Shown: positions 20,026 to 20,534 of the stretch, one piece after another
Layout: every line of letters begins with the position of its first letter
How positions within the stretch are numbered: the first letter of the stretch is position 1
IMG/VR virus record: IMGVR_UViG_3300027969_000483
Location: 1-20,674 of that record
DNA length: 20,674 nt
From: a virus
Strand: one strand, 5' to 3'
Made by a program: the position numbers and the translations under genes
The notes under the pieces: generated by a model
What the model was told of the DNA's origin: nothing
The model's database searches: none
Seen by the model: only the letters and a program-made list of their open reading frames with translations

Positions 20026-20308
20026 AGCCAAGGTCAAGGCAAAGATCAAGGCTATCTTAAAAGCCCACAACATCTACTACGCTATGCCTATTGGTACTGG
20101 CTACGGCAATAGCGGCGTCCCCGATTTTCTATGTTGCGTCAACGGCAAGTTCGTGGCTATCGAAGCCAAGGCGGGTAAGGGTCAAGCGACCGCACTACAA
20201 CTAAAGAATCTGCAACTGATTGACGCATCTGGTGGGTACTCGCTCATCATACGTGAAGACAACTATGCCTACCTAGAGCGAATCATTGAGGAGTGCTATG
20301 CCAATTAG
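20009..20308 (+). CDS. VRR-NUC domain nuclease
   Basis: A 99-residue stand-alone VRR-NUC nuclease of the PD-(D/E)xK superfamily. The signature is VPDFLCCVNGKFVAIEAKAG at residues 37-56, with PD at 38-39, E52 and K54 as likely catalytic residues, followed by the typical Gln-rich helix (QATALQLKNLQLIDASGG). Phage VRR-NUC proteins are thought to cut branched DNA such as junctions or flaps. It lies just before the DNA polymerase gene, consistent with replication or recombination. Length is normal for the phage form. Confidence 0.9.
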   Translation: MATTPEAKVKAKIKAILKAHNIYYAMPIGTGYGNSGVPDFLCCVNGKFVAIEAKAGKGQATALQLKNLQLIDASGGYSLIIREDNYAYLERIIEECYAN

Positions 20309-20534
20309 TCGACAACAGTTGGTTAACGAACTACTACCCGCGCTAGATAAGCTATTCGGACAAACGTATGCAGAGCTTAATCGCACCGAGTACCACATGA
20401 AAAGAAGGTACGGCAAATGCACCATATACCGATGGGACTTTGTTCAAGGCAAGCGAACAAGCATGACCCTAGCCAAAGGCTTAGACCTAGAGACAGCCAC
20501 AGGCATGATGAAACTATTGAAAGACCCTGCATGA
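20298..20534 (+). CDS. Small protein sharing the major capsid N-terminus
   Basis: The 78-residue protein starts with ISRQQLVNELLPALDKLFG after Met-Pro, matching the major capsid start (ISRAQLLKELLPGLNALFG) with 16 identities in the first 25 residues, although the DNA has diverged. The rest (YGKCTIYRWDFVQGKRTSM, then a helical end) is different and resembles a small alpha/beta domain. GAGGAG precedes the ATG. It overlaps the nuclease gene by 11 bases and the polymerase gene by 4. Function unknown. Confidence 0.75.
   Translation: MPISRQQLVNELLPALDKLFGQTYAELNRTEYHMKRRYGKCTIYRWDFVQGKRTSMTLAKGLDLETATGMMKLLKDPA

Follow-up and report, generated by a model that had tools for sequence, protein, structure and literature searches.

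A small gene between a nuclease and a DNA polymerase gene encodes a protein that begins like a major capsid protein. The window, that is the whole stretch of 20,674 nucleotides analyzed (IMG/VR virus record IMGVR_UViG_3300027969_000483), carries this gene on the strand opposite the structural genes, and its position suggests early expression. The encoded 78 amino acid protein (MPISRQQLVNELLPALDKLFGQTYAELNRTEYHMKRRYGKCTIYRWDFVQGKRTSMTLAKGLDLETATGMMKLLKDPA) is predicted by AF2 to consist of a helix (residues 5-27), three strands and a second helix (pLDDT 86.8). No PDB structure matched this fold with Z ≥ 5, and sequence searches of the PDB with the 78-residue protein and the major capsid protein (MCP) as queries returned nothing useful. 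Pfam, PHROG and PADLOC profiles likewise gave no significant family match to the 78-residue protein; sub-threshold matches were to PF07935 (best 9e-4, in one member of the small-protein family, over about 25 residues) and to PADLOC CARF1 (5.5e-4, a single match in one member). The structural genes include the MCP, a putative scaffold and a GroES-like gene, and in HTVC023P and Pag-Yong1 the same position is annotated as GroES.

Table 1. Features of the window discussed in the text.
Feature	Position	Strand	Basis
Tagged small protein, 78 amino acids	20298..20534	+	ATG at 20298; relatives with conserved nuclease-small-polymerase order
Tag, codons 1-25 of the 78-residue protein, MCP N-arm-like helix	20298..20372	+	Match statistics, predicted helix 5-27, dN/dS 0.057
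Predicted C-terminal strand-strand-strand-helix domain of the 78-residue protein	20382..20531	+	AF2 pLDDT about 95
Nuclease (PHROG 93), upstream neighbor of the 78-residue gene	20009..20308	+	
DNA polymerase start, downstream neighbor, cut by the window end	20534..20674	+	
Major capsid protein, HK97 fold	118..1029	-	PHROG 371, PF25209, AF2/Foldseek
MCP codons 1-25, N-arm helix (predicted helix 5-26)	955..1029	-	Near-invariant in relatives
Putative scaffold	2360..3367	-	C-terminal motif at codons about 2363-2452
GroES-like co-chaperonin adjoining the capsid genes	3378..3818	-	Weak Pfam Cpn10 match

The MCP belongs to the HK97-fold family and begins with a helical N-terminal arm. Profile searches placed it in PHROG 371 (1e-22) and, above cut-off, in PF25209, and its AF2 model (pLDDT 87.9) shows an HK97 fold with an N-terminal helix at residues 5-26 (Foldseek E-value 5e-12). 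The best structural matches of the model by VIA-align are encapsulins, aligned from the N-terminal helix on, and the JBD30 procapsid aligns to it from residue 2. In JBD30 (PMC11445458) and P22 (PMC9965877) the N-arm is helical in the procapsid only and unfolds on maturation. The capsid protein of AAA160-P02 (locus L275; L- and G-numbers denote loci and contigs of related uncultured viruses), named as the closest capsid to that of vSAG 37-F6 (PMC5490008), is 63% identical to the window MCP. The window MCP family is also related to cluster CAM_CRCL_773, which is reported to comprise the most abundant viral proteins detected by ocean proteomics (PMC5490008). In one related contig, two TGA codons were reported within an MCP-like match region (G099:C1:32931-33044, minus strand, contig of L486).

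The N-terminus of the 78-residue protein resembles that of the MCP (MAISRAQLLKELLPGLNALFGMEYARYGEE) far beyond chance. As the sequence-only reading had claimed, 16 of the first 25 residues are identical, in an ungapped alignment with a BLOSUM62 score of 76, and codons differ widely, the same codon being used at 6 of the 16 identical residues with 43 of 75 nucleotides identical. The best rival among the N-termini of 12,808 other ORFs scored 25, and none of 200,000 shuffles reached 76 (maximum 42). Together with a search of reversed ORFs, these statistics rule out chance or composition as the source of the likeness. Chimeric assembly or contamination is ruled out by the divergence of the tags in both protein and codons and by their recurrence in dozens of contigs. 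The end of the similarity near residue 25, also reported before, holds for the window, where the remainder of the small protein is a separate domain and nothing of the capsid protein is present beyond the N-arm, but not for all relatives, where it can extend up to MCP residue 36 or beyond (L439, L444, L462).

The original claim named, as the outcome that would refute it, that the segment is a common helix of low specificity. We carried out tblastn searches of 50,697 phage records using the small protein, a hand-made family consensus and the MCP tag as queries. The matches are mainly to capsid N-termini, including those of HTVC023P, HTVC027P, MinM2, Pag-Yong1 and DSL-LC04, and non-capsid matches in these records are weak, which rules out a generic helix. 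A weak echo of the tag start, M(A/P)ISRxQMxKQI, opens small basic ORFs downstream of the MCP with E-values of 0.2 or worse (L246:12695-12934, L258:11701-11826, L289:7495-7752, L252:3541-3702).

The tag is attached to many unrelated protein bodies. Viral contigs were fetched by pattern scans with K, or D/E/H/Q, or S/T/R at tag position 18, and a profile of MCP residues 1-28 identified, among the contigs of uncultured phages, 71 distinct ORFs that do not encode the MCP and that group into 13 body clusters, counts that are lower bounds because of the restriction at position 18. As pattern-fetched contigs were chosen for the tag, their E-values are not independent. The tagged bodies include 67 amino acid proteins that end in PPENHTQGSNI or a similar sequence, one protein of about 335 amino acids encoded behind a VWA gene and a 110 amino acid protein, and those tested against Pfam and PHROGs had no convincing match. 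The window-type and VWA-slot-type clusters are probably related, since their sequences match over nearly their full length. Anchor genes place most representatives in the replication module, where they follow the VWA gene, lie between nuclease and polymerase or lie close to the polymerase; three tagged ORFs (L462, L484, L505) have no informative anchor gene. The tag is mostly N-terminal and C-terminal in one recurrent family (L439, L463, L466, L499), which makes an N-terminal translation signal unlikely. As in internal proteins of the T4 type, a short terminal sequence is common to diverse bodies.

Within the family of the 78-residue protein, the tag is polymorphic. Relatives were found in uncultured viral contigs only, with none among the phage records searched, and occupy the slot between nuclease and DNA polymerase (gene order compiled for the initial matches). 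Conservation is strong over the C-terminal 50 residues. Most members carry an MCP-like helix at the N-terminus, the closest being MAISRADLLKELLPGLNKLFGIEY (L318) and MPISRAQLLKELLPGLNNLFGMQY (L024); others begin with different helices (L312, L323, L332, L354) or with no helix (L168, L169). Tag state changes six times on the polymerase tree, at least four of them on well supported branches. In pairwise alignments, a block of about 50-65% identity spanning the nuclease 3' end and the tag lies within flanks that are about 93-98% identical, indicating that tag alleles are swapped by recombination; between L165 and L022 the domain stays 97% identical despite a divergent tag block. Nevertheless, the tag is under purifying selection, with a dN/dS within the window's type of 0.057 compared to 0.217 for the remainder of the protein. 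A tie between the tag and the nuclease C-terminus is ruled out, as the same nuclease pairs with different tags. One ORF contains tandem MCP-like tags in one frame, VSVSRVQLLKELLHELEELFA and MPISRAQILKELLPGLEKLFG (L155:1264-1650, plus strand), and the contig of L159 / L426, possibly chimeric in its assembly, contains the small-protein domain two or three times, with copies on both strands. A helix unlike that of the MCP, LTIQQITNEALRVLEKAF, is common to N-termini of the small protein (L323, L359) and ORF2 of L157 and L167 and is perhaps a further module.

The tags are not simply copies of the phage's own MCP. Slot protein and MCP occur together in 13 contigs (the window, G029, G030, G046, G057, G063, G067, G068, G093-G095, G098 and G105), 11 of which have a non-capsid protein with an MCP-like tag. 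The other two, G063 and G068, are long contigs with the same MCP and a small protein with a different N-terminus. Position 18 is alanine in all 11 MCPs compared and lysine in most tags, so the tags do not duplicate the present MCP. Tracking of the own MCP by the tag is ruled out more generally, because phages whose MCP N-termini are identical have divergent tags or no tag. Eight records of same-MCP relatives include the nuclease, and the six that are readable have other ORFs in the slot. The use of another capsid by contigs without an MCP is also ruled out: 14 of 15 checked lack a portal gene too and the remaining one ends inside the portal, indicating that these contigs are partial.

Neighboring ORFs carry further pieces of the capsid and scaffold proteins. 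These pieces provide a fair test because they were never used to fetch loci. Profiles of MCP residues 46-80 (E-loop, 7e-5), 88-133 (spine, 5e-7) and 268-302 (C-terminus, 7e-10) match non-capsid ORFs, whereas profiles of segments 81-110, 134-165, 165-195, 195-230 and 230-262 found no copies on such ORFs. A profile of the scaffold C-terminus matches DUF3310 proteins and other early ORFs with E-values of 2e-10 to 3e-5, so that more than 10 ORFs of relatives carry the motif; in the window, it matches the scaffold itself and no other ORF. In DUF3310 proteins of relatives, a scaffold-like motif lies between the N-terminal part and the DUF3310 domain (L330:1455-2021, L335:1-486, L346:6715-7272, L343:1601-2212, L312:6422-6988), a motif absent from the DUF3310 protein of the window (19002-19574). 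Profiles of five other structural families (P274, P157, GroES, portal and TerL) revealed no convincing partial copies on ORFs, their matches being fragments at locus ends, remote homologues or borderline values. Reversed ORFs gave no match at E ≤ 0.01, with the scaffold count of this control run including truncated scaffolds. When ORF2 C-termini were compared to all ORFs by blastp, MCP or scaffold were the best outside matches for the matching types and several C-termini had no match to either. Pieces also occur side by side: scaffold motif, spine and N-arm lie on consecutive ORFs in L439, L463, L479 and L499, and MCP residues 86-132, 1-36 and 277-297 lie on three consecutive ORFs in G087.

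The reading we favor, at somewhat under an even chance, is that the tags serve for docking at the assembly interface and recruit accessory proteins to the scaffold or procapsid, comparable to the capsid-targeting sequences of T4. Residues 1-25 of the 78-residue protein reproduce, in portable form, the N-arm helix of the HK97-fold MCP, and this phage group attaches short assembly pieces, namely the N-arm, the spine helix and the scaffold C-terminal helix-turn-helix and less often the E-loop and C-terminus of the MCP, to small proteins of the replication module. The N-arm tag would share the procapsid partner of the MCP N-arm, by analogy the scaffold C-terminal motif, and proteins carrying the scaffold motif would in turn bind the MCP. 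The attached domains may thereby reach the nascent procapsid, either being co-packaged like T4 internal proteins or acting during assembly. In P22, the C-terminal helix-turn-helix of the scaffold docks onto the N-arm helix of the coat protein and also touches R101 of the P-domain (PMC9965877). The two halves of this interface correspond to the two commonest modules found here, which makes docking the best-supported reading. The sequence-only reading had proposed that an early and a late protein share a helical tag for a common binding partner, a proposal strengthened by the 13 body clusters, the C-terminal placement and the purifying selection and weakened by the differences between the tag and the own MCP. 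Among the partners suggested at that point, the scaffold has the most indirect support, because its C-terminal motif is the other module copied and docks on the coat N-arm helix in P22. We infer the partner, as well as recruitment, packaging and the function of the attached domains.

Docking is favored by the exclusion of chance, the capsid specificity, the many bodies, companion modules that come only from MCP and scaffold, their adjacency and the purifying selection. It is weakened by the E-loop and C-terminal pieces, which are not obvious scaffold-docking surfaces, by the difference between tags and own MCP including the two contigs with the same MCP and another small-protein N-terminus, and by the location of the genes in the replication module, whereas packaged phage proteins are usually made late.

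The closest known system is that of T4, whose internal proteins are diverse anti-defense proteins with a common capsid-targeting sequence (PMC3012670, PMC9026906). Similar to the proteins described here, IPI, IPII and IPIII are small accessory proteins of diverse kinds with a short terminal sequence in common. This sequence sends them into the prohead, and once injected they block restriction (PMC3012670, PMC9026906, PMC12373910). The T4 signal consists of about 10 residues of a propeptide, in contrast to about 25 residues from the MCP N-arm or scaffold C-terminus here, where C-terminal placement is possible. T4 internal proteins are packaged and injected, a fate that is proposed for the tagged proteins. 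Cargo fused to the P22 scaffold protein is also loaded into capsids (PMC9962691); those fusions are engineered while the present genes are native and putatively early, with binding suggested by analogy. In the literature, which we covered in part, so that absence weighs little, we found no account of early proteins that carry pieces of the capsid N-arm or the scaffold.

A broader and rather unlikely extension is modular self-mimicry, in which the coat-scaffold interface would be dismantled into peptide modules (N-arm, spine helix, scaffold helix-turn-helix, E-loop and C-terminus) on adjacent small early proteins, creating matched docking pairs outside the capsid. Such pairs could, for example, build accessory complexes or load a replaceable set of injected proteins.

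The pieces could also act as immune decoys that imitate capsid or scaffold parts sensed by host defenses and fill the sensors without triggering them, which we consider unlikely. Defenses do sense MCPs, and CapRel SJ46 is a single host protein recognizing both an MCP and the small phage protein Gp54 (PMC11578894), the latter being unrelated to the MCP in contrast to the small proteins here that copy its sequence. The swapping of tags within nearly identical flanks and the at least four to six changes of tag state resemble an arms race, and several different MCP segments are copied. A trigger displayed early would however normally activate the sensor, and the scaffold-motif copies would require a second sensor class. 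The same recombination of tag alleles, the difference of tags from the own MCP and the origin of the pieces from assembly elements could point to interference with capsid assembly of co-infecting relatives or satellites using the same capsid. We regard this as quite improbable, given how little the MCP N-arm varies among relatives, so that a poison would also hit the producing phage.

Routing to a chaperonin is a further candidate, and a similarly improbable one. The N-terminus of T4 gp23 strongly targets fusions to GroEL with the co-chaperonin gp31, a similar case of an MCP N-terminus serving as a portable targeting signal (reviewed in PMC3012670), and the tag could direct proteins likewise. 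The available portion of that review describes no natural early proteins carrying the gp23 N-terminus. A GroES-like gene lies in the capsid module here, in HTVC023P and in Pag-Yong1 and is core in HTVC023P-type phages (PMC9599517), yet routing leaves the scaffold-motif copies and E-loop pieces unexplained and domains of 50-80 amino acids should need no chaperonin. It is very improbable that the MCP gene 5' end recombined once before small genes and was kept as a structural helix with no shared partner. The predicted helix-strand-strand-strand-helix fold would let the tag pack on its own domain, and some members start with a different helix or with no helix at all; against this reading stand the presence of one tag on many bodies, also at a C-terminus, and the restriction of the companion pieces to MCP and scaffold.

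If the N-arm does work as a docking tag, early proteins that otherwise lack annotation in an abundant phage group would be recognizable, by a simple sequence rule, as directed to the capsid or as modulators of assembly or immunity. Packaged or injected content would be directly testable by proteomics, and the N-arm could represent a native cargo tag for capsid engineering. Should the modular self-mimicry outlined above be true, the finding would represent a general tagging code and not one odd gene.
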